NCBI RefSeq assembly: GCF_900114485.1
Contig: NZ_FOTF01000004.1
Location: 62,001-126,000 of the forward strand
Direction of reading: 5' to 3'
DNA: 64,000 nt
DNA from: Loktanella salsilacus
GTDB taxonomy: Bacteria; Pseudomonadota; Alphaproteobacteria; Rhodobacterales; Rhodobacteraceae
Below are positions 20,191 through 35,110 of this stretch, one piece after another (positions within the stretch are counted from its first letter, which is position 1; the number at the start of each line of letters is the position of its first letter). The position numbers were made by a program, and so were the translations under genes. Under the pieces are notes generated by a model. The model saw only the letters and a list, made by a program, of their open reading frames with translations. It was not told the DNA's origin and made no database searches.

Positions 20191-20558
20191 TCCGTCTTTT
20201 CGGCCGCGAAAGCGGCCGAAATATCCGACAGCTGAAACGGCTTTTCGATCAGTTGAAACGAGTCGATCTTGGAAATCTCGTGACGGTTATAGCCAGAGGC
20301 AAAGACGACATGCGTCCCGCGTTCGGCTAGCATCAGACCCAGCGCTAGACTGTTTTCGCCGTTGCCGAGGTTCATGTCCAGCAACGCAAAATCAAACGAT
20401 GTAGTTTCGCACTTTGCCATCGCAGCCGGCAGGTTATGCGCCATATGAACGTCGAACCCTAGTTCGTGTTCTAGCCCGTCAGACACATCCAGAGCGACGA
20501 TCACCTCATCCTCGACATATAGCAGTTTAGATTTCGAGGGAGTTGAACAGTGATTCAT
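20184..20558 (-). CDS. Single-domain response regulator
   Basis: A 124-residue receiver domain without an output domain. Visible are the acidic pair in LLYVEDE, the phosphoacceptor Asp in FALLDMNLG, the Ser in FASGY and the conserved Lys in IEKPF. The ATG at 20558 is preferred over a TTG at 20570. It overlaps the 3' end of the HWE-kinase gene by 32 bases, so the two are co-translated and the regulator is its likely partner. Lacking an effector domain, it may pass the phosphate on or compete for it. Confidence 0.9.
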   Translation of the reverse strand: MNHCSTPSKSKLLYVEDEVIVALDVSDGLEHELGFDVHMAHNLPAAMAKCETTSFDFALLDMNLGNGENSLALGLMLAERGTHVVFASGYNRHEISKIDSFQLIEKPFQLSDISAAFAAEKTDH

Positions 20559-23500
20559 GAGGGATCTCAATTAGCGCATTTACCGGTATTTGGAGAACGC
20601 ACCGCAAACCTTCTGGTTCCCAATGAAATTCAACATTTCCATTTAGACTGCCGGTGATAGTGGATTTGATCAGTTGAGTGCCAAAGCCATCGTCACCGCT
20701 GACCGTTGGGGCGGGACCACCCGTTTCTGTCCAAGTAAAGATGTAGGTGTCGGACTCGCCATCGTCTTGGCGCAGCCAATTAAGTCTAACCTTGCCCTGG
20801 GGATTTGAGAACGCACCATATTTTGCGGCGTTCGTGGCCAGTTCATGCACTGCCATGCCCAGCGATAGGGCCGCGCGAGCGTTGACGATAATCTCTGGGC
20901 CTTTCAGTTCGACGCGGTCCGCGCCGTAGACCGCAGTTAGTTCGGGGGCAAGGATCTGGCTAAGGTTCGCAGAGGCCCAGTTCGACTGGGTCAGCAGTTT
21001 GTGCGTCTGCGCGAGCGCCTGAATGCGGCGGGCGAGCGCGGTAAACACATCGCGGTCCACCGTGGCATCGCGGCTGGCACGGGACACAAGCGCCAGCACA
21101 TTTGCCAGCATATTTTTCACGCGGTGCTGCAGTTCCTGCATCACACGGCGCAGTTCAAACTGCAGCTGCACTTGTTCGGTGATGTCGCGAACGTTCAGTC
21201 CTACGCCTGTCAGGCCCCCATCGTGAAATACCGGATACCAATCCGTTTCCCAGACCCGTTCTTGTCCGGGGTTGTCGGCTGTGCCGCCGCGCAACTGCTT
21301 GTTTTCGATGCGCGTGCGGTTGTCCAGAACTTCGCGTGCGATCGGCTCAATCACATCACGCAGCGCGGGTGACATAGAACCCAGTGTTTTGCCGATCAGC
21401 TCGTCCACCTCGAACCCTGCGATTTTCGCAAGGCGTTCGTTGGCGCGCATATAAACTAGATCATGGCTGAGCATGCCCATCGCGAGGGGGCTGCCATTAT
21501 ACAGGTCTTCAATCTCGGCCAGACGCTGGACCGACAGGCCGCGCTGATGCTCTGCCTCTTGGGCAAGGACGCGCAATTCGGTGACATCGAATAGCGACAG
21601 CACGATCCCGCCTTGGGTCGATCGGTCGGATTCAAACGGGACGATCCGGGCGCGAAAGGCTTGACCGTTACGGCTGTCATAATCCGTTTCGATCATGGTC
21701 TGCGTTTCCAGCACCTTGCGGCAATCATCAAGGATGGCAAAGACATCAAGGTCCGACCCGATGTCATCTAGGGGCCGCCCAACGTCGCCCGACACAAAGC
21801 GGAATTGATTGCGCGCTTCTGGCGTAAACCGACGTAGGCGCAGTTTACTGTCGAGGAAGATGGTGCTGATTTTGCTGCTGGCGATAAAGTTTGCCATATC
21901 GGCATGAGCATCGCGAATTTCGGCAATCTTGGCGTTCAACTCGTCATTGGTGGTCGTCAGCTCTTCATTCGCGGATTGAAGCTCTTCGTTCATCGACATC
22001 ATTTCCTCGTTAGAGCTTTTCAGCTCTTCGTTCGAGGTCTCAAGCTTTTCAGTCGCACTGGTTAGCTGCCCGCGCACGTCGTCCAGCTCTGACTCTAGCT
22101 GACGCAGGTATTCTTCATTGTCTTGTCCGACCATCTGACTTGTGAGTGCAGCGTCGACGTCGTCAGTCGCGAGCGCCTCGAATGCGATCAGGATCTGGCG
22201 GTCATCGGTTTTACGGCCGGTGATGCGTAGCCGCACGGGCTTGTCGTCTAGCGCGCCGCTAAAGGTAATGGATTGATTTTGATCAAGCTTTTGATCCAGC
22301 CGTAAAAGCCGCGCAAGTGTGGTGTTCAGCTCGGGTCGGATCAATTTCAGGATCGACAGTTGCGGACGTCCCGCGCCGACTTGCAGGTATTTGCTGGCTT
22401 TTTCAGAGGTATAAAGCAGATCGCCCTGCATGGTCAGAACCATATAAGGCGGCGCAAAATGTTGCATCAACTCGGGTGCGCCGGGGGCCGTTTCAGGCTG
22501 CGTCACGGAAGACAGATTGTTATCGTTTGCCTTGTCAAAGATGCCATCTGCTGCGCGCAATTCCAGCCGGGACGGTGGCCCGGGCATGCGGCGAAAGATG
22601 TGGTGGTTACGCGATGTTTCTTCGAACAAGTCATGGACGCGGGGGATGCTTTCGCTGTTTCCCAAAACCAAAATGCCATTTTCACGCAGGCTGTAGTGGA
22701 ACGCCTTCGCGACGGAATCCTGCAACGACGTCTGAAAATAGATCATGACATTCCGGCACGACAGCAGATCGATCTGCGAAAATGGCGGATCTTTGATCAG
22801 GCTTTGGTTGGAAAATCGGATGATATTGCGCAGCCGCTCGTTGACGGAATATCCATTCGCATTGGGTCTGAAGTATTTCTGCACCAAGTCAGTTGGCATG
22901 TGACTGACGTTTTCCGTGCTGTAGTGTCCCGCACGTGCGACGCGCAGCGCGCCTTCATCGATGTCGGTGCCAAAAATTGACAGGGACGGCCAGACGTTCA
23001 GCCGTTCCATCACCTCTAGCAGGGCGATCCCATAGCTATAGGCTTCTTCGCCGGTCGCGCAGCCGGCCACCCAGATGCGCAGATCGCCCTCGCTGCCTGC
23101 GCGCGCGATCAAATCGGGCAGGGTGACATCGCGCAACTCTCTGAATGTGTCTTCGTCGCGAAAGAAGCTGGTGACGTTGATCAAAATGCTATCGAACAGC
23201 AGGTCAGCCTCTCTTGGATCGTCGATCAGATAGCGCAGATATTCCGACGCGCGTTCCTGCCCAAGGATCGACATGCGCACGGCAATGCGGCGCAGTAGCG
23301 TGCCGGGTTTGTATTCGGTGAAGTCATGCCCGACGCGGTGGCGCAGGTGACGCATCACGCGCTGGATAAAGTCACTATCCGATGGCTCTTCGATGGCAAA
23401 GTTCTGGATGCGGGCAAAGAAGTCTTCGAGGACAGGCGCGATTTCGGCGACGGGTAGGATTAGGTCGCAGGCCCCGGTCGCAATCGCGTTGCGCGGCATG

Positions 23501-24006
23501 CCATCGTACTTCGCCTCTTCGGGGCGCTGGACCAGTACGAGGCCGCCGTTATTCTTAATGTCACTGATCCCGACGCTATTATCGCTGCCGGTGCCTGACA
23601 GGATAATTCCGACCGCATTCAGGCCAGAATGCCGCGCGAGTGAAATCAGGAAGTCGTCGATAGGCCGTCGTACGCCGCGCGGCTCTTGAAACTTTTCAGT
23701 GTGAAAGCGGCTATCCGCGATCGTCAAAATATCGCCCGGCGCAATCAGATAAATGTGCCCTTCGTGGACGGGGCAACCCTCGTAGGCGGTCACGACGGGG
23801 CTCTTGGTTTGTCGGCTTAGCAGTTCCTGCATCAGGCTGTCGTGATGCGGGTCTAGATGCTGCACGATGACGATTGCCATTCTGTGCTGATCGGGCAGAT
23901 ATTCCAGCAGACCTTGGATCGCCTCAAGCCCCCCGGCAGAGGCACCGATGCCGACAATGATCAAGCCGTCGTGGTCAGTGGTCGTTTGGTCAGTCAGGCG
24001 CGTCAT
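20527..24006 (-). CDS. CheB-CheR-PAS-HWE histidine kinase fusion
   Basis: A 1159-residue cytoplasmic fusion. The N-terminal CheB-like methylesterase (about 14-195) keeps catalytic Ser23, His50 and Asp142. A CheR-like methyltransferase follows (about 210-470, with WVAGCATGEEAYSYG and FGTDIDEGAL). A coiled coil rich in NEEL/SNEE repeats spans about 635-710, then two PAS domains (about 715-830 and 850-960). The end is an HWE-type kinase with phosphoacceptor His in LQHRVKN, the N-box HELATNAAKYGA and the TWTE of the HWE motif. The PAS domains lack the LOV cysteine. It is divergent from a LOV protein and coupled to a receiver protein. The ligand and methylation target are unknown. Confidence 0.93.
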   Translation of the reverse strand: MTRLTDQTTTDHDGLIIVGIGASAGGLEAIQGLLEYLPDQHRMAIVIVQHLDPHHDSLMQELLSRQTKSPVVTAYEGCPVHEGHIYLIAPGDILTIADSRFHTEKFQEPRGVRRPIDDFLISLARHSGLNAVGIILSGTGSDNSVGISDIKNNGGLVLVQRPEEAKYDGMPRNAIATGACDLILPVAEIAPVLEDFFARIQNFAIEEPSDSDFIQRVMRHLRHRVGHDFTEYKPGTLLRRIAVRMSILGQERASEYLRYLIDDPREADLLFDSILINVTSFFRDEDTFRELRDVTLPDLIARAGSEGDLRIWVAGCATGEEAYSYGIALLEVMERLNVWPSLSIFGTDIDEGALRVARAGHYSTENVSHMPTDLVQKYFRPNANGYSVNERLRNIIRFSNQSLIKDPPFSQIDLLSCRNVMIYFQTSLQDSVAKAFHYSLRENGILVLGNSESIPRVHDLFEETSRNHHIFRRMPGPPSRLELRAADGIFDKANDNNLSSVTQPETAPGAPELMQHFAPPYMVLTMQGDLLYTSEKASKYLQVGAGRPQLSILKLIRPELNTTLARLLRLDQKLDQNQSITFSGALDDKPVRLRITGRKTDDRQILIAFEALATDDVDAALTSQMVGQDNEEYLRQLESELDDVRGQLTSATEKLETSNEELKSSNEEMMSMNEELQSANEELTTTNDELNAKIAEIRDAHADMANFIASSKISTIFLDSKLRLRRFTPEARNQFRFVSGDVGRPLDDIGSDLDVFAILDDCRKVLETQTMIETDYDSRNGQAFRARIVPFESDRSTQGGIVLSLFDVTELRVLAQEAEHQRGLSVQRLAEIEDLYNGSPLAMGMLSHDLVYMRANERLAKIAGFEVDELIGKTLGSMSPALRDVIEPIAREVLDNRTRIENKQLRGGTADNPGQERVWETDWYPVFHDGGLTGVGLNVRDITEQVQLQFELRRVMQELQHRVKNMLANVLALVSRASRDATVDRDVFTALARRIQALAQTHKLLTQSNWASANLSQILAPELTAVYGADRVELKGPEIIVNARAALSLGMAVHELATNAAKYGAFSNPQGKVRLNWLRQDDGESDTYIFTWTETGGPAPTVSGDDGFGTQLIKSTITGSLNGNVEFHWEPEGLRCVLQIPVNALIEIPHESLFNSLEI

Positions 24007-24088: not shown

Positions 24089-24610
24089 ATGACGCAGCTG
24101 AATATGACCGAAGTCGCGAAGCGGCTGGATGGTGCCAACATCCCGCTGACGATTGCCGATGCAACACGTCCCGATATGCCGCTTTGCTACGTCAATCCCG
24201 CATTTTGTACCGCGACAGGCTATGATTCAGAGCAGGTTATCGGCAAGAACTGCCGGTTTTTGCAGGGCGATTTGGACAACGACACCGCTCGGCTAAAAAT
24301 GCGCCGCGGGCTGGCGCAAAGAACCGGATTTCAGGTCGTGTTCCGCAACAAACGTGCCGATGGCAGCACGTTTGACAACCTTGTGATCATTGAGCCGCTG
24401 ACAGATGCAGAAGGGGAACTGCTTTATGTCGTTGGATCGCAATTCGTCCTGAAGGACGGCATGCAGGCGGAACAGACGAACAGCGCTGGGCAAGGCATCG
24501 TGCGTGAAATCGACAAGCTGTTGCAGTTAAACGAACGCCTGCGCGCGACATCGCGACAGGCGCTGGCGCGGTCAATGGCCGCGTCCGTTAAACTGTGGCT
24601 GGAACGCTAA
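24089..24610 (+). CDS. Short LOV-domain blue-light photoreceptor
   Basis: A 173-residue protein made of one LOV (PAS-type) domain and a C-terminal helical tail. The flavin-adduct cysteine is Cys55 in GKNCRFLQG, the diagnostic LOV motif, and the flavin-contacting Asn in FDNLVIIEPL and Gln in VVGSQF are present. It should bind FMN and form a blue-light adduct. There is no output domain, as in short LOV proteins such as the one from Dinoroseobacter. GGAAG precedes the ATG. It is divergent from the CheB-CheR-HWE kinase, which may be its signalling partner. Its stop overlaps the convergent Anbu gene by 4 bases. Confidence 0.92.
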   Translation: MTQLNMTEVAKRLDGANIPLTIADATRPDMPLCYVNPAFCTATGYDSEQVIGKNCRFLQGDLDNDTARLKMRRGLAQRTGFQVVFRNKRADGSTFDNLVIIEPLTDAEGELLYVVGSQFVLKDGMQAEQTNSAGQGIVREIDKLLQLNERLRATSRQALARSMAASVKLWLER

Positions 24611-25338
24611 AGCTTATACGTCGGAAGAGATACGAAAGCTTCTTTTAACGCATCACCCCAGCCGCTGGAAATCTGATGATAGACCTCGTCGTCAGCTTCG
24701 ACGCGGGCGCGTTTGTGGATTTCAAAAGCGTCTTTTTCGTACAGCACGATGTCAAACGGCAGACCGACAGACAGGTTCGATTTGACCGTTGAATCGAAGG
24801 ACACCAGCAGCAGTTTGACGGTGTCTTCGAACGTCATCTCTGGGTCATAGGCGCGCACAAGGATTGGCTTGCCGTATTTCGTCTCTCCAATCTGAAAGAA
24901 CGGAGTCTCTTCGGTCACTTCGACGAAGTTGCCTTCGGGATAGACCATAAAGATCGTCGGCACGCCGCCAGCGATCTGGCCGCCGACGATGACGGTCGCG
25001 CGGAAATTGCTGCCCGATGTGTCGCCCGTGGGGGACGAATAGGCGATGACCTCTTGCAAGGTCGCGCCGACCAGGCGGGCGACCTGAAACATTGTTGGTT
25101 CGCGCATGATGCTGGGGTCGCGGTCAGCGGCGGATTTTGACCGTTCTTCCAGCAGGGAAATCAGGGATTGCGTCGTCGCAAGGTTGCCGGCGGTCATGAT
25201 CGTGATGACCCGCTCGCCCGGCGCTTCCCATGTAAACATCTTGCGGGTCATGGAAAAGTTGTCGACGCCAGCGTTGGTGCGGGTGTCGGACATGAAGACT
25301 AGGCCGCGGTTTAGACGCAGGCCAACGCAATAGGTCAT
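24607..25338 (-). CDS. Anbu, bacterial proteasome-like peptidase
   Basis: A 243-residue Ntn-hydrolase of the Anbu (ancestral beta subunit) family, related to HslV and 20S proteasome beta subunits. After Met removal, the N-terminal nucleophile would be Thr1 (TYCVGLRLNRGLVF), with Asp17 (MSDTRT) and Lys32 (MTRKMF) at the proteasome positions, so the active site is complete. Anbu forms helical or open-ring oligomers rather than closed barrels and its substrates are unknown. It is the last of five genes in one direction, with transglutaminase, alpha-E and ATP-grasp genes upstream, the typical Anbu neighbourhood. The only other frame over this region is the 4-base overlap with the LOV gene. Confidence 0.93.
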   Translation of the reverse strand: MTYCVGLRLNRGLVFMSDTRTNAGVDNFSMTRKMFTWEAPGERVITIMTAGNLATTQSLISLLEERSKSAADRDPSIMREPTMFQVARLVGATLQEVIAYSSPTGDTSGSNFRATVIVGGQIAGGVPTIFMVYPEGNFVEVTEETPFFQIGETKYGKPILVRAYDPEMTFEDTVKLLLVSFDSTVKSNLSVGLPFDIVLYEKDAFEIHKRARVEADDEVYHQISSGWGDALKEAFVSLPTYKL

Positions 25339-25368
25339 GGGAATTCTCTGATTTAGGTTAAGTCGCTT

Positions 25369-26166
25369 CTACTGCTGGACTTGCAGCGTGACAATCAGCG
25401 ATTCATCCCCGTCGCCCAAGCGCATCCCCTTAACCGGGGCCGCATCGCTTGCGTCGCACCCAATAGCCAAGCGGGCATAGCGTTCATCCGGGCTGATCCC
25501 GTTGGACACATCGAACCCCACCCAACCAAGCGTCGGCAGATGCACCTCTGCCCACGCATGGCTGGCGTCTTGATCAATCCGGTCGTCTAGTTTCAGATAG
25601 CCCGAGACATAGCGCGCAGGAAATCCGGCGTACCGTGCGACAGCGATCATGATATGCGCATGGTCTTGGCACACACCCGCGCCGCCCGTCAGTGCCTGAT
25701 CGGCGGTGGTGTTGGTATAGGTCTGGCCGATCAGATAGGGCACAGCCGCCAAAATTTGGGCTGATAGTGCGTGGCAAGCCCCCAGCGTATCAGTGGCTGA
25801 TTTCAGCGGACGGGCCAGTGCACGGATATCCTTGCTAGGTTTTGTCAGCGCCGTGTCCTGCATGAAATGCCACAACGGTGCAGCGCCATAAACCTTGCCC
25901 ATCACGCCTGCACGGTCATGCGTGCGCACGGTTCCGCTGGCGGTGACGGTCAGTTCGGTCGCACCGCGGTCGGTGTTCACCAGATCGATGACGTTGCCGT
26001 GGTGGTCCTCGCAGGTCAGTTCGATCACGCCGCCATCGACGGTGACTGTCCAGTCCAGCACGGTTTGCATGATGTTCGACTGAGGCCGCAAATGCAGTCG
26101 CTGCAGCGCATAGCTGACGGGCGTGTCATAGGCGTAGCGGGTCGTGTGGGAAATATGCAGGTCCAA
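25369..26166 (-). CDS. Transglutaminase-like cysteine peptidase (Anbu cluster)
   Basis: A 265-residue protein with an N-terminal transglutaminase-associated beta domain and a papain-like core. The catalytic triad is visible: Cys in GGAGVCQDHAH, His in DASHAWAEVHL and Asp in GFDVSNG. Such bacterial members are thought to cleave or form amide bonds. The start is TTG with AGGATA 6-9 bases upstream; no ATG or GTG fits. It follows the alpha-E gene after 8 bases and precedes Anbu by 30, so it is co-transcribed with both. Confidence 0.9.
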   Translation of the reverse strand: MDLHISHTTRYAYDTPVSYALQRLHLRPQSNIMQTVLDWTVTVDGGVIELTCEDHHGNVIDLVNTDRGATELTVTASGTVRTHDRAGVMGKVYGAAPLWHFMQDTALTKPSKDIRALARPLKSATDTLGACHALSAQILAAVPYLIGQTYTNTTADQALTGGAGVCQDHAHIMIAVARYAGFPARYVSGYLKLDDRIDQDASHAWAEVHLPTLGWVGFDVSNGISPDERYARLAIGCDASDAAPVKGMRLGDGDESLIVTLQVQQ

Positions 26167-26174
26167 GGGGTATC

Positions 26175-27116
26175 CTAACCGTAGAACTTGTAATCACGCT
26201 CGATCATTTGGCCGAGGGCATAGTTGTCTTGAATGAAATTCGTGATGAATTCATGCAAACCCTCATCAAAGATCGAGGCGATGTCCCGCTCTTTCAGCTT
26301 TTTCAGCATCAGCTCGGCATGGTCATGGCAGGCGTGACGCTCGCCATATTCGTCGGCCAGATAGTTCAGGTTTTCGACGGTTGTTGCCATGGAAAACACC
26401 AGCGACCGGGGTAGGCGGCGATCAAGGATCAGGAACCGCGCGACGCCAGCGGCTGTCATCTCGTCCTCGTCCAGCCAGCGAAAGGCCCGGTGTGCGGATA
26501 CGGACCGCAGGATGGTTTCCCACTGCACGTTATCTAAGGACGATCCGACAAAGCTGCTGGACGGCAGCAGGGTGTAATATTTTACGTCGATGATCCGCGC
26601 CGTGTTGTCAGCGCGTTCGATAAAGGTGCCGATGCGGGCAAAGTCGTAAATATCATTGCGCAGCATCGTGCCGTGCAACGCGCCGCGCACGATGGCGGAT
26701 TGCTGGCGGATACTGTCCAGAACGCGGGGCAGTTCGGTTTCCTTGACCGGGCGCTTTAGCAGATCCTGAATCGTCATCCAGCTATCGTTAACGGCGGTCC
26801 AGACCTCTGACGTGAGCGCGGTGCGCACCAACCGCGCATTGTCGCGGGCCGATTTTGTCACCGAATAGACCGACGACATGTTGTCTTTGTCGCGCAGCAA
26901 ATAGTCGATCACATCGGTGGCGTTAAAGGTGTCGTGCTTTTCGTGGTAGCGGGTCGCGACGCCTGCGGTGGTGGCAACGGATTCCCATTCGGTGCTCGCG
27001 TCAGTGGACCGGGTCAATGCAATGCGAAAGCCAGCCTCGACCAAGCGTGCGGTGTTTTCGGCGCGTTCCAGAAAGCGAAACATCCAGAACAGGCCGCCTG
27101 CGGTTTTTCCCAGCAT
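26175..27116 (-). CDS. Alpha-E domain protein (DUF403)
   Basis: A 313-residue all-helical alpha-E protein, starting with the family hallmark KTAGGLFWMFRFLERAENTARL and carrying the IERADNTARI segment near residue 168. Alpha-E proteins are of unknown mechanism and occur with circularly permuted ATP-grasp proteins and transglutaminases. It lies 3 bases after the ATP-grasp stop and 8 bases before the transglutaminase, so it is in the same operon. A role as partner or scaffold of the ATP-grasp enzyme is inferred from this conserved linkage. Confidence 0.92.
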   Translation of the reverse strand: MLGKTAGGLFWMFRFLERAENTARLVEAGFRIALTRSTDASTEWESVATTAGVATRYHEKHDTFNATDVIDYLLRDKDNMSSVYSVTKSARDNARLVRTALTSEVWTAVNDSWMTIQDLLKRPVKETELPRVLDSIRQQSAIVRGALHGTMLRNDIYDFARIGTFIERADNTARIIDVKYYTLLPSSSFVGSSLDNVQWETILRSVSAHRAFRWLDEDEMTAAGVARFLILDRRLPRSLVFSMATTVENLNYLADEYGERHACHDHAELMLKKLKERDIASIFDEGLHEFITNFIQDNYALGQMIERDYKFYG

Positions 27117-27119
27117 AGT

Positions 27120-28547
27120 TTAGTCCTCCAGCACCCAAGTATCCTTGGTGCCGCCTCCTTGGCTGGAATTGACGACAAGCGATCCTTCGGTCAGCGCAAC
27201 GCGCGTCAGGCCGCCGGGCGTGATGTCGACGCCATCAGGCGACACCAGCACGTAGGGGCGCAGGTCAACGTGGCGCGGAGCAAGGCCCTTTTTCACCATG
27301 ATGGGCACAGTCGACAGCGACAGCGTGGGTTGAGCGATATAGTTGCTGGGCCGGGCGCGCAGCTTGTCAGCGAAATCAGCGAGCTCTTTTTTGCTGGCGG
27401 CGGGGCCGACTAACATGCCGTAACCGCCCGATCCGTGGACTTCTTTCACAACCAGCTCTGCCAGATTATCGAGCACGTATTTCAAGCTATCCTGCTCGCC
27501 GCAGCGGAACGTCTCGACGTTTTTCAGGATCGCTTTTTCACCGGTATAGAATTCAATGATATCGGGCATATAGCTATAGATCGCCTTGTCGTCGGCGACC
27601 CCCGTGCCCGGTGCATTGGCGATGGTGATATTGCCGGCGCGGTAGACGTCCATAATGCCCGGCACGCCCAGCATCGACTTGGGATTGAACGTCAGCGGGT
27701 CAAGGAATTCATCATCGACCCGGCGATACAGCACGTCAATTTGCTTGTAGCCGCGGGTCGTGCGCATGGCGATGTGCCCGTCCACAACGCGCAGGTCGTG
27801 GCCTTCGACCAGCTCTGCCCCCATCTGATCGGCGAGGAATGAATGTTCGTAATAAGCCGAGTTATAAATTCCCGGCGTCAGCACAGCGATCACCGGCTTG
27901 CCACCGCAGGACTTGGGCGCAGATGCCGCAAGAGAACGGCGCAGATTCTTCGGGTAATCGCTGACGGGCCGCACTTTGATGCGGCTGAACAACTCTGGGA
28001 ACATCTGCAGCATCGTTTCGCGGTTTTCCAGCATATAGCTGACACCGGACGGCGTGCGTGCGTTGTCTTCTAGGACAAAGAAATCGTCTTCGCCGGTGCG
28101 GACAATATCGGTGCCGACGATATGCGTGTAAACGCCGCCGGGGGGCGAAAAGCCCATCATTTGCGGCAGGAACGCCTCGTTTCTGGCGATCAAATCTATC
28201 GGGATGCGGCCTGCCCGCAGAATTTCTTGGCGGTTGTAGATGTCGTGTAGGAACGCGTTGATGGCACGCACACGCTGTTCGATACCGCGTGACAGCTTCG
28301 TCCATTCGCGCCCCGAAATGATGCGCGGCACCAGATCGAACGGGATTAGCCGCTCTTCGGCGGCCATCTGCCCGTAGACGTTAAAGGTGATGCCGGTACG
28401 CCGAAAGAAGGCTTCGGCCTCTTTGGATTTCTTGGCAAGGCGGCCGGGATCTTGGCCGTCGAACCACGATTTATAATTGGCATAAGGCGGGCGCACCTGA
28501 TCGTCGCCCATCCGCATTTCGTCAAAGTGATCTGGCTTTGTATTCAT
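27120..28547 (-). CDS. Circularly permuted type 2 ATP-grasp protein
   Basis: A 475-residue ATP-grasp protein of the DUF404/DUF407 group, of usual family length. Recognisable segments are DLVPRIISGREW, the nucleotide-site region VLEDNARTPSGVSYMLENR, and the glycine-rich loop VVKEVHGSGGYGML near residue 365. ATP-grasp enzymes join a carboxylate to an amine through an acyl phosphate, so it may synthesise a peptide or tag that the transglutaminases and Anbu then process. Product unknown. It is upstream of and nearly touching the alpha-E gene. Confidence 0.92.
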   Translation of the reverse strand: MNTKPDHFDEMRMGDDQVRPPYANYKSWFDGQDPGRLAKKSKEAEAFFRRTGITFNVYGQMAAEERLIPFDLVPRIISGREWTKLSRGIEQRVRAINAFLHDIYNRQEILRAGRIPIDLIARNEAFLPQMMGFSPPGGVYTHIVGTDIVRTGEDDFFVLEDNARTPSGVSYMLENRETMLQMFPELFSRIKVRPVSDYPKNLRRSLAASAPKSCGGKPVIAVLTPGIYNSAYYEHSFLADQMGAELVEGHDLRVVDGHIAMRTTRGYKQIDVLYRRVDDEFLDPLTFNPKSMLGVPGIMDVYRAGNITIANAPGTGVADDKAIYSYMPDIIEFYTGEKAILKNVETFRCGEQDSLKYVLDNLAELVVKEVHGSGGYGMLVGPAASKKELADFADKLRARPSNYIAQPTLSLSTVPIMVKKGLAPRHVDLRPYVLVSPDGVDITPGGLTRVALTEGSLVVNSSQGGGTKDTWVLED

Positions 28548-28609
28548 GTGACTGAAGCTAACGCTTTCCTAGGATACTGCAAATTATTCAGGCAGGTTCC
28601 GCGGAAAGG

Positions 28610-29386
28610 TCAACAGGTCACCACCGAAACTGTCTGCTCATTTAAGGTTGCCGCCCCAAAAGCGGTTAAAAAAGCGACATCCGCGGCGTCGCGGCCAACG
28701 CCTGCGATGATCATGCGATCAGGCGTCGTCATGCCTGTGGGATCGATTAAATGCCAGCCGCCGTTCAGGTAAACCTCTGCTACAGCATGAAAATCTGGCG
28801 GGGTGACATCTGGGCTATAGACACTGGCGATGCGTGCGGGGATCGCGCTGGATCGGCACATAGCGATTAAAAGATGGGCATAATCGCGGCAAACGCCGCG
28901 CCGGGCGTCAAATGTATCCTGCGCGGTGGTGTTGCCGTCGCTGCTTTCGCCATCATAGGTCAAATTATCGGTGATCCAACGCGACATCGCCAGCACACGC
29001 GGCCCGCCGCGCAGGTCGCCAAACGTGTCCGTCATGAACGCGCCAAAGCTGTCAGCCGTGCAATAACGCGACGCCATCAGGTATTTCACCGTTGGCGCGT
29101 TCAGCTGATACAGCGGCGTTTCTTTCAGGGATTTCAGTTGGGCAACCGGGCGATTGACGGTCACTTGCGCGGAATAGGTCAGCAGCAGATCACCGTTGGT
29201 TTCCAACCAGATACGATTGCCGATACCTTCTTCGGCGGGCATGTCGCGAAAGGACTTATAGGCCGCAATTTCTGTGTTTTCCCACGTCACCGTCTGGTTG
29301 AAATCCGTCATCGCGCGGATCTGCAACAGCAGGGTGCAAGGCTGAGGGATGCCATAGTTCAGGCGCACAGTGATCTGGCTGTCCAA
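28610..29386 (-). CDS. Second transglutaminase-like protein (Anbu cluster)
   Basis: A 258-residue transglutaminase-core protein with a complete triad: Cys in RRGVCRDYAHL, His in PDFHAVAEVYL and Asp in HLIDPTG. It differs from the one at 25369 in its N-terminal half, so it is not a recent duplicate. The start is TTG with AGGA upstream; no ATG is available in frame, and the other transglutaminase also uses TTG. It is the first gene of the cluster in the direction of transcription, 62 bases before the ATP-grasp gene. Confidence 0.87.
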   Translation of the reverse strand: MDSQITVRLNYGIPQPCTLLLQIRAMTDFNQTVTWENTEIAAYKSFRDMPAEEGIGNRIWLETNGDLLLTYSAQVTVNRPVAQLKSLKETPLYQLNAPTVKYLMASRYCTADSFGAFMTDTFGDLRGGPRVLAMSRWITDNLTYDGESSDGNTTAQDTFDARRGVCRDYAHLLIAMCRSSAIPARIASVYSPDVTPPDFHAVAEVYLNGGWHLIDPTGMTTPDRMIIAGVGRDAADVAFLTAFGAATLNEQTVSVVTC

Positions 29387-29452
29387 GTAAATAATCCTGT
29401 CTGAAGGTGTCGTCGCAAAACCCGCCGTAACGCAGATTAGTTCCGTCCTATG

Positions 29453-30073
29453 TCACACCAAAGACAACCCGCCAAGGGCCGCAATGCGGGCGATGATGGG
29501 ATCAATTCCCTGATCGTGGCGCAGGGCCGCAAAGCAAACCGTGCCATCGCCGCGCATGCGTGCTGCGTCGCGGGCCATGACGTCAAGCGATGCGCCGACA
29601 TGCGGGGCTAGATCGGTTTTGTTAATCACCAAAATATCGGACCGGGTGATGGCGGGGCCACCTTTGCGTGGAATCTCCTCTCCTGCGGCGACGTCGATGA
29701 CATAGATCGTCAGGTCGGCAAGTTCGGGACTAAAGGTTGCGGAAAGATTGTCGCCGCCGCTCTCAATCAGGACGACGTCCAGATCGGGATGGCGGCTGCG
29801 CATTTCAGCGACGGCGGCCAGATTGATACTGGCATCCTCGCGGATGGCGGTATGCGGGCAGCCACCGGTTTCCACGCCGATGATCCTGTCCATGGGCAGG
29901 ATTTGCATCCGCATCAGCGCCTCGGCGTCCTCTTGCGTATAGATATCGTTGGTGATCACGCCGATGGACAGTTGGTCCTTCAGCCGCACTGCCAGCTTGG
30001 CCGTCAGCGTTGTTTTGCCCGCGCCAACAGGTCCGCCAATACCAATGCGCAGTGGCCCGTGAGGAGAGGTCAT
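29453..30073 (-). CDS. ureG: Urease accessory GTPase UreG
   Basis: A 206-residue GTPase that delivers nickel to apo-urease with UreD and UreF. The P-loop [11 protein letters not shown] lies near residue 13, and the metal-binding Cys-Pro-His of [14 protein letters not shown] near residue 70 and the base-specificity NKTDLA are intact. It overlaps ureF by ATGA and is the last gene of the urease operon. Confidence 0.97.
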
Positions 30074-30705
30074 GACCGGAATATCCTTGGTTGAAGTGTC
30101 TCGTGCTGCATGGCGGCGATGTCCGCCAGAAACGCGCTGCCGCCCAGATCGTCAATGCTTTGCGTCAGCGCCGCTTGCGCCAGCGATAGGCATAGCGGCG
30201 TTTGATCCGCGACAATCCGTTGCGCCTGAGTTTGCCCCAATGGCATGCAGCGCTGCGCCGCTGAAATCAGCCCGGCGGTGAACGCATGCAGGTACGCCGA
30301 AAGCGTCACATCTAGGGCGATCCCCTGCATCCGGGCCGCACGGCCGACGGCAACCGGCAAGCACATGGGCCGCAGGTCCAGCCCCCAAACGGCATTTACC
30401 GTGGTGCAAAACGCCTCGCCCTGTGCTGTCGTTTCCAGCAGCCGTTCGCGGGATGGCGCAAGCGCGCGGGCGAGTGCGTCAATCTGTTGCGCATCGTCGC
30501 TGCGATACGCCTCTGCCAACAGGATGGCGTCGTTGCGGCCTGTTCCATGCGTGAGCACTGTGGCAATCCAGTCCTGCAGGCCCGCTGCATCGCGCAACCG
30601 CCCATCCGCGACTGCCATTTCCAACCCGTGCGAATAGCTAAACGTACCCAGCGGAAAACCGGGCGAGAGCCATTGCATCAGCGTTAGTAGTCCCTCAGTG
30701 GGCAT
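30070..30705 (-). CDS. ureF: Urease accessory protein UreF
   Basis: A 211-residue all-helical nickel-insertion chaperone that acts in the UreDFG complex. The N-terminus [20 protein letters not shown] with FSYSHGLE is typical. The frame is open to 30807, but the ATG at 30705 matches the normal family start and overlaps the ureE stop by 11 bases; the longer version would run through ureE. It is followed by ureG with a 4-base overlap. Confidence 0.95.
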
Positions 30706-31144
30706 GCGGCATCGTCCGGCCGTGGCCATAAGCGCCGCCTTCAGGGGTGAAGGGTGCGTCGATTTCGGCAACATCCGCGCCCAGATGATCGCGCAACATG
30801 TGACCAATGACCGGATCGCGCAGGATCAGCAGGTGGTCGCCTGCAAACTGACAGGGCATGTGGCGATTGCCGATATGCCATGCCATCCGCACCAAATCGC
30901 CAGCGACGCGGTAAAGCGGCTCTGCGGCAGCTTTGATGCGAATAAACCGACCGTCGTTCAGCGCCAGCAGATCACCGTCATTTAGGGATGTTGTGTGTTC
31001 CAAATCGACCAGAACCGCGGTGCCACCATCGCAGGTTAGCACTTTGCGCCGCATCAACCTCGCATCGTAGGTCAGCGCGCAGGTGTCGAACACCTGCGCG
31101 CTGTGATTGTCAGTGACAATGTTATGAACGATCAGCTGCGTCAT
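30695..31144 (-). CDS. ureE: Urease accessory protein UreE
   Basis: A 149-residue nickel-binding metallochaperone. The central segment AWHIGNRHMPCQF holds the conserved His pair and the peptidyl-prolyl-like fold, and the C-terminal tail [10 protein letters not shown] is a short His-rich nickel-binding end. It lies 28 bases after the DUF1127 gene and overlaps ureF. Confidence 0.95.
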   Translation of the reverse strand: MTQLIVHNIVTDNHSAQVFDTCALTYDARLMRRKVLTCDGGTAVLVDLEHTTSLNDGDLLALNDGRFIRIKAAAEPLYRVAGDLVRMAWHIGNRHMPCQFAGDHLLILRDPVIGHMLRDHLGADVAEIDAPFTPEGGAYGHGRTMPHAH

Positions 31145-31172
31145 GCGCGGCCCCCGTTCGCCAGATCAAAGA

Positions 31173-31397
31173 TCAGACGTAGAACAGGTCGCGAAAGACG
31201 TGTTGCACGATACGGTCGCGCTTGATGCCCAGTTTGGACAGCTCTTCGTCTGTTTTTGCTTCCAGATTGTTGATCTGGTCCATCCGCGAACGGCGCTCCA
31301 TATAGGCATTCATGCCCTGGCCGATCGAAGCGAAGAAAGCGTCCACTTTTTCGCGGATTGCTGCGGTGCGCGGTGCGCTGAGTGTTTGCGTAGCCAT
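31173..31397 (-). CDS. DUF1127 small protein inside the urease operon
   Basis: A 74-residue protein whose C-terminal part, with EAKTDEELSKLGIKRDRIVQ, is the short DUF1127 motif, an Arg-rich helical segment common in alphaproteobacteria and linked in some species to RNA turnover and phosphate or stress responses. The ATG at 31397 is preferred to an upstream TTG at 31418. It sits between ureC and ureE in the same direction, with a 120-bp gap before it containing a GCGGC/GCCGC hairpin (31412-31425). A urease role is not established. Confidence 0.82.
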   Translation of the reverse strand: MATQTLSAPRTAAIREKVDAFFASIGQGMNAYMERRSRMDQINNLEAKTDEELSKLGIKRDRIVQHVFRDLFYV

Positions 31398-31517
31398 TGG
31401 AAACCTTGTCTGCGGCAATCGCCGCTAAAGTATGAATCAGGTCTCCTCCCCTGCCAGACAACATAGGGATGCTGCGGCGCAGCACAATTGCGTTTTCTGC
31501 AACCCCGATGCCCACCA

Positions 31518-33227
31518 TCAGAATAGAAAGTATCGCTGGGCCATCGGCAGAACCTCGGCGGGTTGGCATGTCAGTAGCTCTCCGTCGGCGCGGACCTCGT
31601 ATGTTTCGGGGTCCACATCGATCTGGGGCAGGGCGTCATTCAAGATCAGATCGCGCTTGCCGATGTTGCGGGTGTTCTTGACGGCGACAGTCTGCTTTGC
31701 CAGCCCAAGGCTGTCACGGATGCCTGCATCCTGTGCTGCTGCGCTGACGAAACTAACGCTGCCATGCCGAAGTGAGCTGCCATACGCCCCGAACATCGGG
31801 CGCGAATAAACAGGCTGCGGCGTTGGGATGCTGGCATTCGGATCGCCCATCTGTGCCACGACTATCGTGCCGCCCAGCAGCACCATTTCCGGCTTCACGC
31901 CAAAGAATGCGGGGCTCCACAATACCAGATCGGCGCGCTTACCCTCTGTGATGGATCCCACCTCGTGGCTGACGCCATGGGCAATCGCCGGGTTGATCGT
32001 ATATTTCGCAATATAGCGGCGGACGCGAAAGTTGTCGTTGTCGCCGGTTTCCTCGGCCAAGCGCCCGCGCTGTTTCTTCATCTTGTCCGCGGTCTGCCAT
32101 GTGCGGATGAGCACCTCACCGACCCTGCCCATCGCCTGACTGTCGGACGCGATGATCGAAAACGCGCCCATATCGTGCAAAATATCCTCTGCGGCAATCG
32201 TCTCGCGGCGGATGCGGGATTCGGCAAAGGCGACGTCTTCGGGGATCGATTTGTCCAGATGGTGGCACACCATCAGCATATCGAGGTGCTCTTCGATGGT
32301 GTTCACGGTGAAGGGCCGCGTCGGGTTGGTGGACGACGGCAGAACAAACTCTTCGCCGCAAATCTTGATGATATCCGGGGCATGACCGCCGCCAGCGCCT
32401 TCAGTGTGGAACGCGTGGATCGTGCGGCCTTTCATGGCCTTCACGGTATGCTCCACAAAGCCGCTCTCGTTCAACGTGTCGGTGTGGATCATCACCTGCA
32501 CGTCCATGTCGTCTGCGACAGACAGGCAGCAATCGATGGCCGCAGGTGTGGTGCCCCAATCCTCGTGCAGCTTTAGACTGCAAGCGCCAGCTTTGACCAT
32601 CTCGATCAAAGCGTCCGGCTGGCTGGCGTTGCCCTTGCCCGCAAGGCCGATGTTCATTGGGATGCCGTCAAAGGCCTGCAGCATCCGCCCGATATGCCAA
32701 GGACCCGGCGTACAGGTCGTGGCCAACGTGCCATGGGCAGGCCCCGTGCCGCCGCCAAAACAGGTGGTGACGCCTGAATGCAGCGAATCTTCCATCTGCT
32801 GCGGCGCGATAAAGTGGATGTGCGAATCAAACCCGCCAGCGGTTAAAATGCGGCCCTCGCCGGCGATAATCTCTGTCCCCGGTCCGATAATAATATCAAC
32901 GCCGCTTTGCGTGTCAGGATTGCCCGCCTTGCCGATCTTGTGAATGCGGCCATCCTTCAGCGCGACATCCGCCTTCCAGATCCCAGCATGATCAACGATC
33001 AGCGCATTGGTGATGACCGTATCCACAGCCCCGCCCGCCCGCGTGACCTGAGACTGCCCCATCCCGTCGCGGATCACCTTGCCGCCACCGAACTTCACCT
33101 CTTCGCCGTAGGTGGTCAGATCGCGTTCGACCTCAATGATCAAATCAGTGTCCGCCAGACGCACCTTGTCGCCCGTCGTTGGGCCAAAGGTGGCGGCATA
33201 ATTCGCGCGGGAAATCAGGGCTGGCAT
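31518..33227 (-). CDS. ureC: Urease alpha subunit
   Basis: A 569-residue catalytic subunit hydrolysing urea to ammonia and carbamate at a dinickel centre. The nickel-bridging carbamylated lysine is Lys219 in [17 protein letters not shown] supplies metal-ligand histidines, and the flap segment [20 protein letters not shown] is intact. Length matches the family. It follows the small gene at 33232 after 4 bases and precedes the DUF1127 gene. Confidence 0.98.
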
Positions 33228-33231
33228 AGGC

Positions 33232-33549
33232 TCACTTCATCAACGTTGGGCCGCGCTTGCCAAGGCGTTTGGCATTGGCGCGGGTTTTCTGGCGCAAGGG
33301 CTTTACGGCGGCATTCATGATCTCGTCCGGGCGCTTGCCCGTCATCGCCGCCAGCGTGGCACTTTGCATCGATTTGGTGATCGCTTCGGTCTTCTCGGAC
33401 ACCATGCGGTCGTTTTCATCGGAGGTGACGGACCACAGCCCGCCCCAGCCCATCATGCGCATGGCGATGACGCTCTGCGCTTCGGCCAGCATCATGCCGA
33501 CCTCCATCTGTGTTTTAAATAATTCAAGCGGGGTCGCATTCCGGGCCAT
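33232..33549 (-). CDS. Small hypothetical protein between ureB and ureC
   Basis: A 105-residue protein with no recognised catalytic motif. The first half is a helical, Met-rich segment ([24 protein letters not shown]) resembling phasin-type coiled helices; the last 25 residues are strongly basic. The ATG at 33549 is one base after the ureB stop, and the gene ends 4 bases before ureC, so it is firmly inside the operon. An earlier in-frame start at 33585 would overlap ureB. Position suggests a role in urease assembly or storage, but this is only inference. Confidence 0.75.
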
Positions 33550-33550
33550 G

Positions 33551-33856
33551 TCACAACTCTCCCATGACGGCTGCATTGAACCCATAGATATGCCGCCGCC
33601 CGCCGATTGCGATCAGTTTCACTTCGCGGCGCTGACCCGGCTCGAACCGCACGGCAGAGCCGGGCGGGATATCCAGCCGCATCCCGCGCGCCGCAGCCCG
33701 GTCAAAATCCAAACCCGGATTGGTCTCTGCAAAATGGTAGTGGCTGCCAACTTGCACCGGCCGGTCGCCCGTATTGGCGACCATCAGCGTCAGCGCCTCA
33801 GAGCCCGCGTTCAGCTCGATATCACCCTCTGCCGTCATCACTTCACCGGGGATCAT
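33551..33856 (-). CDS. ureB: Urease beta subunit
   Basis: A 101-residue structural subunit with the family start [16 protein letters not shown] and the conserved [11 protein letters not shown]. The frame continues upstream to 33895, but those 13 residues are the reading of an intergenic TATTTTT motif and lack family character; the ATG at 33856 has AGAGGT 7 bases before it. Confidence 0.96.
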
Positions 33857-33870
33857 TGCGATACCTCTTC

Positions 33871-33896
33871 TCATCATCTTGCTAAAAATACTCAAA
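33871..33896 (-). repeat. TATTTTT-type intergenic motif in ureA-ureB gap
   Basis: On the minus strand it reads TTGAGTATTTTTAGCAAGAT followed by GATGAG. It closely resembles the element at 19013-19038 and fills most of the 42-bp ureA-ureB gap, ending just before the ureB ribosome site. Confidence 0.5.
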
Positions 33897-33898
33897 AT

Positions 33899-34201
33899 TC
33901 AACGGATCGGTTCGTGAACCGTCACCAGCTTGGTGCCGTCTGGAAACGTCGCCTCGACCTGCACCTCGGGCAGCATCTCTGCGATACCCTCCATGCACTG
34001 ATCACGGGTAATCACCTGCGCGCCGGCTTCCATCATATCGGCAACGGACCGCCCGTCGCGGGCGCCTTCGACGACGGTATCTGTAATCAGCGCAATCGCT
34101 TCGGGGTAATTCAGCTTTACCCCCCGCGATAGCCGCTTGCGCGCGACCTCGGCCGCCATAGCGATCAGCAGTTTGTCTTTTTCACGGGGTGTCAGTTGCA
34201 T
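33899..34201 (-). CDS. ureA: Urease gamma subunit
   Basis: A 100-residue structural subunit of the urease trimer with the canonical opening [12 protein letters not shown] and the segments [13 protein letters not shown], and [15 protein letters not shown]-like [20 protein letters not shown] at the end. It follows ureD after one base. Length is the usual 100. Confidence 0.97.
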
Positions 34202-34202
34202 A

Positions 34203-35027
34203 TCAAAGCGTCCAAGTCGGGGGCAGGGGGCCGCGCAAGGCGGTCAAAACGGGGATCAGCGCGCGGCGTAGATCGTGGCTGTCTGCGGCCAGAACGCGCG
34301 CGAATAGGACGCCGTCCCGGATCAGGCTGACACCAGCATTGGCGGGCATCAATGCGCGCAGGGTATTCAGCCGTGCCTCGGCATCGGGGGCCACATAGGT
34401 CACGCTGGCAAGGCAATTCGCCGGGCCGCCGCACCAAGCCGCAGCCATCTGGTCAGAAATCGCGCCATCCAGCGCGATGGCATCAGCAAAGATTAAATCG
34501 CCGCCGCGTGTGATGCGGACGTCGTCCTTTGCAAAACCTGCTTCAATCCGCTCGCCCATCAGGGCACGGCCAAGCACAAGCGTTTCGACACCTAGGAAAA
34601 TAGCGTCATTGGCCATATCAACAGTCAGCCTGCGCCGCAGGCGGCAGCGATCAAACAGGATGGTTTCCTGCGGCAGCCAGTCCAGCCGTGCGCCGGGGGC
34701 AAGGGCCGCTTCCGTCGTCATGCGGGCGGTCTGACCGGGCTGGGCTTTGTAAATCCGCTCTGCCGTTTGAGTGGTCAGGGTCAGGTGACTACCCTGTGCG
34801 ACCTGCGCGGCAATGGAAAAGCGGTCGCCTCCAGTCACGCCGCCTGCGGTGTTCAGCGTCACGGCCAGCAGATCGCCACCCGCGTGGCGCGGGAACAGCG
34901 CCTTGGACGCGCCGGATTGGCGCAGCGTGTCCAGCCGGTTACCTGCCTTCACGCCAATGCGCAGCACACCCTGCGCGCGGGGCGTCAGGTGATGCGGGTC
35001 ATCATGCAAGGGCGCGGCAAGTGTCAT
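34203..35027 (-). CDS. ureD: Urease accessory protein UreD
   Basis: A 274-residue accessory protein that docks UreF and UreG onto apo-urease. Diagnostic segments are [28 protein letters not shown] and [12 protein letters not shown]. The ATG at 35027 is chosen over an upstream in-frame TTG at 35063. It is the first urease gene in transcription order, 83 bases after the TRAP permease, and abuts ureA. Confidence 0.95.
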
Positions 35028-35110
35028 GGCCCAACCCTGCGCAAATTTCTCGGGCAGAGGCAACAGAACAGCCCTTCGTCACGGGCCATTCTTGTGCGAT
35101 TGCCTGAAAA

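Follow-up and report, generated by a model that had tools for sequence, protein, structure and literature searches.

An Anbu/ATP-grasp cluster of Loktanella salsilacus with an additional transglutaminase and predicted nitrogen control

The 64,000-nucleotide stretch of the Loktanella salsilacus genome analysed here (contig NZ_FOTF01000004.1, positions 62,001 to 126,000; hereafter the window) carries five consecutive genes encoding a transglutaminase-like protein (TG1), a circularly permuted (CP) ATP-grasp protein, an alpha-E protein, a second transglutaminase-like protein (TG2) and the proteasome-like protein Anbu. As judged from its sequence, the cluster is an intact member of a known system in variant form, distinguished by a dependent extra transglutaminase and by nitrogen control for which there is support in the promoter sequences. 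It probably represents an NtrC-controlled amide ligase/amidase system of the Anbu/CP-ATP-grasp kind that responds to nitrogen starvation.

The core operon and its accessory transglutaminase

All five genes were found as intact open reading frames (ORFs) on the minus strand (Table 1), as a first-pass annotation of the sequence had described, and the gene families that it had assigned were confirmed by Pfam and by matches to solved structures. Pfam detected Transglut_core in TG1 and TG2, CP_ATPgrasp_1/2 in the ATP-grasp protein, Alpha-E in the alpha-E protein and Proteasome in Anbu; Bact_transglu_N was present in TG2 and not in TG1 at E <= 0.001. PF14403/PF04174 span the full domain of the ATP-grasp protein, which assigns it to the circularly permuted ATP-grasp type 2, and its closest solved relative is 3n6x (E 8e-194); PF04168 with the conserved ER motif places alpha-E in the family of that name. 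Anbu has the proteasome-like fold with Thr1, Asp17 and Lys32 after the start Met, stands in an operon with ATP-grasp, alpha-E and transglutaminase genes, and matched near full length five distinct sequences of solved structures (E 1e-85 to 2e-63), of which four carry the title Anbu or Peptidase and the fifth is a designed Anbu. Residues 8-250 of TG1 matched the solved structure 3isr (E 2e-38), which is annotated only as putative transglutaminase-like; TG2 matched it more weakly.

The catalytic residues, also listed in the first pass, were unvaried in all aligned relatives, the window included: Thr1/Asp17/Lys32 of Anbu in 88/88, and the Cys/His/Asp triad in 29/29 for TG1 and 85/85 for TG2. This triad places TG1 and TG2 in the transglutaminase-like superfamily, and they may act by glutamine transamidation or as amidases. 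The nearest named relative is Loktanella fryxellensis (locus L147), with 75-93% identity across the five proteins, and it was from this species that the order (Rhodobacterales) and class names of the samples used below were inferred. The order-level sample comprised 121 Rhodobacterales genomes and the class-level sample 152 genomes; 87 Anbu neighbourhoods, window excluded, were compared.

The ATP-grasp, alpha-E, TG2 and Anbu genes stand in the same order and on one strand in 81 of the 87 other Anbu loci, separated by a median of 4, 3 and 37 bases. Departures from this arrangement are of several kinds. In G044 Anbu and TG1 lie beside a system of a second type (see below), and ATP-grasp, alpha-E and TG2 are on a different contig; in G052 Anbu is distant from the trio of the other three genes; G084 and G086 are without TG2 and carry, in opposite orientation, a large protein that falls into one ORF family with the DUF2126 protein described below. 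Anbu was detected in 88 of the 121 Rhodobacterales genomes and ATP-grasp in 86 of these 88, the two remaining genomes being G106, which has Anbu alone, and G109, where the contig runs out inside alpha-E. In the first pass it had been reasoned that Anbu without the ATP-grasp and alpha-E genes would point to chance linkage; apart from the contig-end cut, this was seen in only 1/88 genomes, and therefore the linkage of the core genes is not due to chance. In the class-level sample an ATP-grasp match accompanied Anbu in 38/38 genomes, and 15 of the 53 genomes with an ATP-grasp match (of either type, a few of them weak or partial) were without Anbu. Read from gene content, the dependency is of Anbu on the ligase, since Anbu almost never occurs without ATP-grasp and ATP-grasp often occurs without Anbu.

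The description of the cluster as a unit of five genes held for the four-gene core operon and not for TG1, which is an accessory, usually unlinked gene separated from the core by an NtrC-like site. TG1 orthologues are distinct from other transglutaminases: matches in 29/121 genomes score above 200 bits, and the next one reaches 110 bits. The gene is next to core genes in six of the 29 genomes (the window, G102, G028, G003, G095 and, with Anbu only, G044) and is encoded elsewhere in the chromosome in the other 23, where no neighbour family was found in more than 5/23 loci. Both Anbu and ATP-grasp were present in 29/29 TG1 genomes (hypergeometric probabilities 2e-5 for Anbu and 9e-6 for ATP-grasp, uncorrected for phylogeny). 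In the class-level sample TG1 was found at E <= 1e-30 in 6/152 genomes, the window's genome included, and all six have Anbu and ATP-grasp. When a public genome collection was scanned with the TG1 alignment and the best 80 of at least 592 relatives were kept, Anbu was near TG1 in 5/80 of the available flanks and an Anbu-less trio in 1/80. Whole-genome searches covered 50 of these best 80 relatives, the 30 left out being nearly all titled metagenome-assembled genome (MAG) or uncultured, and detected ATP-grasp in 50/50 and Anbu in 39/50; the 11 Anbu-less genomes were from Sphingomonas (8), Caulobacter (2) and Phenylobacterium (1). The three TG1 samples (29, 6 and 50) partly overlap and may share species, and the window's genome is in both the 29 and the 6. 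Because ATP-grasp was found in 50/50 genomes versus Anbu in 39/50, TG1 is, at the level of gene content, an accessory that tracks the ATP-grasp ligase rather than Anbu. A literature search found no paper on the TG1 family, which has no searchable name; the key 2009 paper was not covered by it.

Both transglutaminase genes do begin with TTG-GAC, as noted in the first pass. The TTG start of TG1 is common to the window and L. fryxellensis, where TG2 starts with ATG. In 84 other relatives the TG2 start was assigned as ATG in 83 and GTG in one, by a rule for choosing starts that leans mildly towards ATG. The TTG of TG2 thus looks private, and TTG as a device shared by both transglutaminases was rejected for TG2. 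The linked copies of TG1 start with TTG or GTG in 6/6 cases and the unlinked copies with ATG in 22/23. The linked copies formed one group in a tree, with weak support (64/88), and because they may be one clade, their start codons do not constitute independent evidence. The proposal that TTG sets a low stoichiometry thus finds no support for TG2, and none of an independent kind for TG1.

In the S1 pocket of Anbu, Thr20, Thr48 and Leu52 agree with Pseudomonas aeruginosa Anbu, and residue 30, which is Phe in the Anbu-1 subtype according to the description of that protein, is Thr here. In the 88 Rhodobacterales sequences this position holds Phe (36), Tyr (29), Thr (11), Ser (9), Ala (2) or Cys (1). 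Linked TG1 coincides with Thr30 in 6/6 cases; because five TG1-less relatives have Thr30 too, the association is probably a clade signal.

Table 1. Positions of the cluster genes, putative NtrC-type sites and adjacent genes in the window
Feature	Position	Strand	Basis
Anbu, 243 aa, Thr1/Asp17/Lys32	24607..25338	-	Pfam, solved-structure matches, catalytic residues
TG2, transglutaminase-like with Bact_transglu_N, 265 aa, TTG start	25369..26166	-	Pfam, catalytic residues
Alpha-E, 313 aa, all-helical, internally duplicated	26175..27116	-	Pfam, structure model, hhalign
Circularly permuted ATP-grasp, 475 aa	27120..28547	-	Pfam, 3n6x match
NtrC-like palindrome TGCCTGAATAATTTGCA, 47 bp upstream of ATP-grasp start, in TG1/ATP-grasp gap	28578..28594	-	16.2 bits, operon matrix
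TG1, transglutaminase-like, 258 aa, TTG start, accessory component	28610..29386	-	Pfam, 3isr match, catalytic residues
Urease genes ureD, gamma, beta, alpha, ureE, ureF, ureG, upstream of TG1	29453..35063	-	ORFs and profile matches
NtrC-like palindrome CGCCTAATTTTCAGGCA, 54 bp upstream of ureD	35101..35117	-	21.1 bits, operon matrix
CheB-CheR-PAS-HWE kinase hybrid	20527..24006	-	
Single PAS protein	24089..24610	+	

NtrC-type sites and nitrogen control

A de novo search for dyads (paired tetramers) upstream of the operon yielded TGCC-N9-GGCA with an A/T-rich centre. The exact motif is present in 15/85 operon promoters, compared with 26/1700 random segments and 5/380 promoters of other genes; scans of the operon promoters with the textbook NtrC and sigma54 consensus sequences gave weak or no enrichment. 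The shape of the motif is that of the NtrC site of Paracoccus denitrificans, (T/C)GC(C/A)NNNNTTNNT(G/A)GCA, which is listed before glnBA, amtB and nasTS; mutating the site before nasT abolished up-regulation, and nasT expression was lower in an ntrB mutant (PMC5424462).

Allowing at most one mismatch, the strict published pattern was found in 17/85 operon, 2/30 glnB-type and 14/380 control promoters. The strict pattern is a poor detector even of glnB, and for this reason palindromic matrices were trained instead, all from one seed pattern that was picked after the motif had been seen, with the window excluded from the training sets. The operon set contained 80 dereplicated promoters of 85, and the glnB set the DNA upstream of the 30 best P-II genes (29 after dereplication), in which glnB and glnK were not distinguished individually. 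With the 95th percentile of the controls as the detection threshold, the glnB-trained matrix recognised 62/80 operon promoters (area under the curve, AUC, 0.94). Conversely, all 29/29 glnB promoters passed with the operon-trained matrix (AUC 0.99), which detected 67/80 operons in cross-validation. Matrices trained on random promoters recognised 1, 3 and 1 of the 29 glnB promoters (AUC 0.49, 0.63 and 0.50). Of all 85 operon promoters, the operon matrix, its training set included, accepted 74, and the glnB matrix 66.

In the window, the site upstream of ureD is the best 17-mer of the 64 kb with both matrices, and that upstream of ATP-grasp is the second best with the operon matrix and the fourth with the glnB matrix. 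The cluster thus has an NtrC-type palindrome upstream, as expected of a member of an NtrC regulon. Two relocated trios, both in the training set, have a site (12.7 and 18.2 bits with the operon matrix, 10.3 and 16.6 with the glnB matrix), and none was found in three loci with relocated or orphan Anbu. Unlinked TG1 promoters had a site in 0/23 order-level loci and in 0/73 loci from the genome collection, many of which are not from Rhodobacterales, where the matrix is unvalidated. In 24400-30200, a scan for promoters and terminators gave two promoter-like sites, against a mean of 2.8 in shuffles, and three terminator-like sites, against 5.9.

Nitrogen control of the Anbu operon is already known in Pseudomonas. 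In Pseudomonas putida grown on nitrate versus ammonium, the log2 values are 4.44 for PP_2685 (Anbu), 3.99 for PP_2688 (ATP-grasp) and 4.38 for ureD (PMC8050072, Table 2), and the operon PP_2685-2688 has been attributed to NtrB/NtrC (PMC7801951). The NtrC regulon of Burkholderia cenocepacia includes a DUF403/404/transglutaminase cluster (PMC5491218). A literature search for 'Anbu' together with 'NtrC' found no paper, and such papers may use gene numbers instead.

Several results speak against a simple assignment to NtrC. The ATP-grasp site has two mismatches to the strict published pattern and is missed at the limit of one, which the ureD site passes, and the low yield of that pattern in the operon promoters themselves (see above) belongs here too. 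The operon matrix detected no site in 11/85 operon promoters, of which three are TG1-linked, and the glnB matrix none in 19/85. At -47, the window's site is closer to the ATP-grasp start than most (56/70 are at -136 to -86). Outside Rhodobacterales the operon matrix found a site in only 9/40 promoters tested of 52 other class-level ATP-grasp genomes; the nine are distributed as 9/30 Anbu genomes and 0/10 Anbu-less genomes (Fisher 0.08). In P. putida, a PP_2685 promoter construct was nitrogen-agnostic (PMC8050072), and in the wild type Anbu was up only 1.12-fold, with its three partners up 11- to 15-fold (PMC7801951). With these points taken into account, the sequence evidence from the sites still supports the prediction that the core operon of Rhodobacterales is under nitrogen-starvation (NtrC) control.

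Related systems and neighbouring genes

The closest known counterpart of the cluster is the four-gene Anbu operon of P. putida (PP_2685-2688), Yersinia bercovieri and P. aeruginosa, which has the same four families and catalytic residues, and in P. putida is under nitrogen-starvation control, as predicted here from the NtrC-type site. The window cluster differs from it by the upstream TG1, by an NtrC-type site of the Rhodobacterales kind and by its position behind urease genes. A second, Anbu-less system is encoded in the same genome (locus L122, 4766-11387, minus strand) and consists of a transglutaminase, an ATP-grasp/alpha-E fusion and a DUF2126 protein, itself a large transglutaminase. It resembles the window cluster in having ATP-grasp, alpha-E, transglutaminase and an NtrC-type site, and differs in that Anbu is absent, ATP-grasp and alpha-E are fused, DUF2126 is added and the ATP-grasp identity is 30%. 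Its site, 57 bases before the DUF2126 ORF and overlapping the end of the preceding ORF, scores highest within its 20 kb by both matrices (20.5 and 18.9 bits). The NtrC-regulated DUF403/404 cluster of B. cenocepacia is a relative of this Anbu-less CP-ATP-grasp system.

The urease genes precede TG1 on the same strand with a spacing of 66 bp between ureG and TG1; the protein in the ureG position scores as CobW/HypB/UreG. The same order of urease, TG1 and core genes occurs in L. fryxellensis, where the top-scoring site (17.5 bits) precedes the ureD match by 28 bases and a 13.2-bit site, third best of 20.8 kb, is in the TG1/ATP-grasp gap. Read-through from the urease genes into the cluster is possible. 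A terminator-like hairpin at the end of ureG (29482-29464) speaks against simple read-through, and terminator-like hairpins in this region are no commoner than in shuffles. Outside the window, urease adjacency was seen only in L. fryxellensis; as a general rule it was rejected, with one distant ureC (L084) in 113 loci, including the 87 other Anbu loci. In marine metagenomes these domains correlate with urea metabolism (PMC3597751), and urease is listed among the NtrC-regulated functions in Rhodobacterales (PMC5343134).

The alpha-E sequence is internally duplicated and contains two ER..NTAR motifs. Its halves are homologous (hhalign probability 98.3%, E 2.5e-14, 84 columns), with ERAENTARL aligned to ERADNTARI, and the ER pairs at 17-18 and 167-168 were invariant in 40 sequences. 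The structure model is confident (pLDDT 90.1, pTM 0.88); Foldseek found no relative of the model in the PDB at E <= 0.001, and the sequence search detected no solved relative (best E 0.91). This pseudo-symmetry, together with the paired Glu-Arg motifs, hints that alpha-E may serve as a binding or partner protein.

On the other side, a CheB-CheR-PAS-HWE kinase hybrid is encoded near Anbu; a relative lies beyond Anbu in L. fryxellensis and L148, and on the opposite side of the cluster in a Loktanella MAG (L167). The single PAS protein, whose gene converges on Anbu and is also present in L. fryxellensis, matches models of LOV blue-light photoreceptors below their cut-offs.

Proposed function and alternative explanations

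In the scheme that we favour, NtrC would act under nitrogen starvation at the site before ATP-grasp and switch on the four-gene core operon, a second NtrC-type site being present before the urease genes directly upstream. Fold and dependency suggest that ATP-grasp, with alpha-E as partner, would form an ATP-driven amide bond on a carboxylate, and that the amide bonds of the product would then be cut or transferred by TG1 and TG2, acting as cysteine enzymes, and by Anbu as a threonine enzyme. TG1 would be an accessory that follows the ligase, not Anbu, and that has no NtrC-type site where it stands alone. The likely purpose would be to regain or redistribute, under ammonium shortage, the nitrogen held in peptides, proteins or amine conjugates, by ligation and subsequent hydrolysis rather than by classical unfoldase-fed proteolysis. 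The dependency pattern fits the idea, taken up in the first pass, of a putative amide-linked product that would be processed by the peptidases. More tentatively, TG1 may be an overlooked fifth enzyme, mostly distant and outside NtrC control, whose action on the product of the ligase does not depend on Anbu; the system as a whole would then be ligate-then-hydrolyse scavenging with Anbu as an optional amidase, joined in Loktanella to urea use through the urease adjacency.

Some evidence runs counter to the favoured scheme. Published tests of Anbu, whose structures have been described, detected neither peptidase nor amidase activity with the substrates used, and the proteins of the Y. bercovieri operon showed no specific interaction among them (PMC5666114, PMC6376114). 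The phyletic counts given above are raw and ignore kinship. In G106, which is 99% complete, alpha-E and CP-ATP-grasp were searched for and neither was found, and its Anbu retains the catalytic residues though it is without partners. The gene (L110, 5989-6723) is bordered by gene families found on either side of the full operon in some related genomes, such as L119 and L111, and only ATP-grasp, alpha-E and TG2 have apparently been lost.

A somewhat unlikely alternative, though the one that survives best, is that ATP-grasp makes a specific amide-linked peptide or metabolite that is matured by the transglutaminases and Anbu (Iyer et al. 2009, as presented in later papers). The ATP-grasp fold, the ATP-dependent phosphate release by the Y. 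bercovieri protein (PMC6376114) and the DUF2126 protein of the second system, whose Pfam name is putative amidoligase, are in line with such a synthesis. However, a substrate peptide gene near the cluster, suggested in the first pass, was sought and not found: 2089 short ORFs lying no more than 1.2 kb from one of 81 clusters were compared, and the most widespread families extend over 7 of these clusters. Nor was an accessory gene family common to most loci found; with a crude ORF caller that missed or mis-stranded some genes, the largest family of longer neighbours besides the core spans 24 loci in mixed places and the next 14. Scavenging fits NtrC control at least equally well.

A self-standing Anbu protease that serves general protein turnover during starvation, with the other genes as regulators or mere neighbours, is improbable. 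Thr1 of P. aeruginosa Anbu binds epoxomicin and MG132, its authors favour protein degradation (PMC5666114), and Anbu survives alone in G106, but the near-constant presence of ATP-grasp in Anbu genomes (86/88 in Rhodobacterales, one exception being contig-cut, and 38/38 in the class sample) and the inactivity of published Anbu on casein and the peptides tried (PMC5666114, PMC6376114) argue against this. Least probable of all is that the palindrome is the site of a different NtrC-family regulator, for example NtrX. The published NtrC-family/NtrX pattern GCA-N9-TGC (PMC7240162) does overlap the motif, but the operon matrix recognises every glnB-type promoter (29/29) and the P. denitrificans evidence cited above (glnBA, amtB and nasTS; ntrB effect on nasT; PMC5424462) points to NtrC.

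The cluster bears on the search for the substrate of Anbu, a protein with solved structures that has been assayed in published work on standard peptides. Should NtrC control the operon of Rhodobacterales as it does that of Pseudomonas, ammonium limitation would be the condition for a substrate hunt. Provided that TG1 is indeed a dependent partner, this enzyme may, in hosts that carry it, be a component that was absent from the earlier co-expression tests of the four genes.

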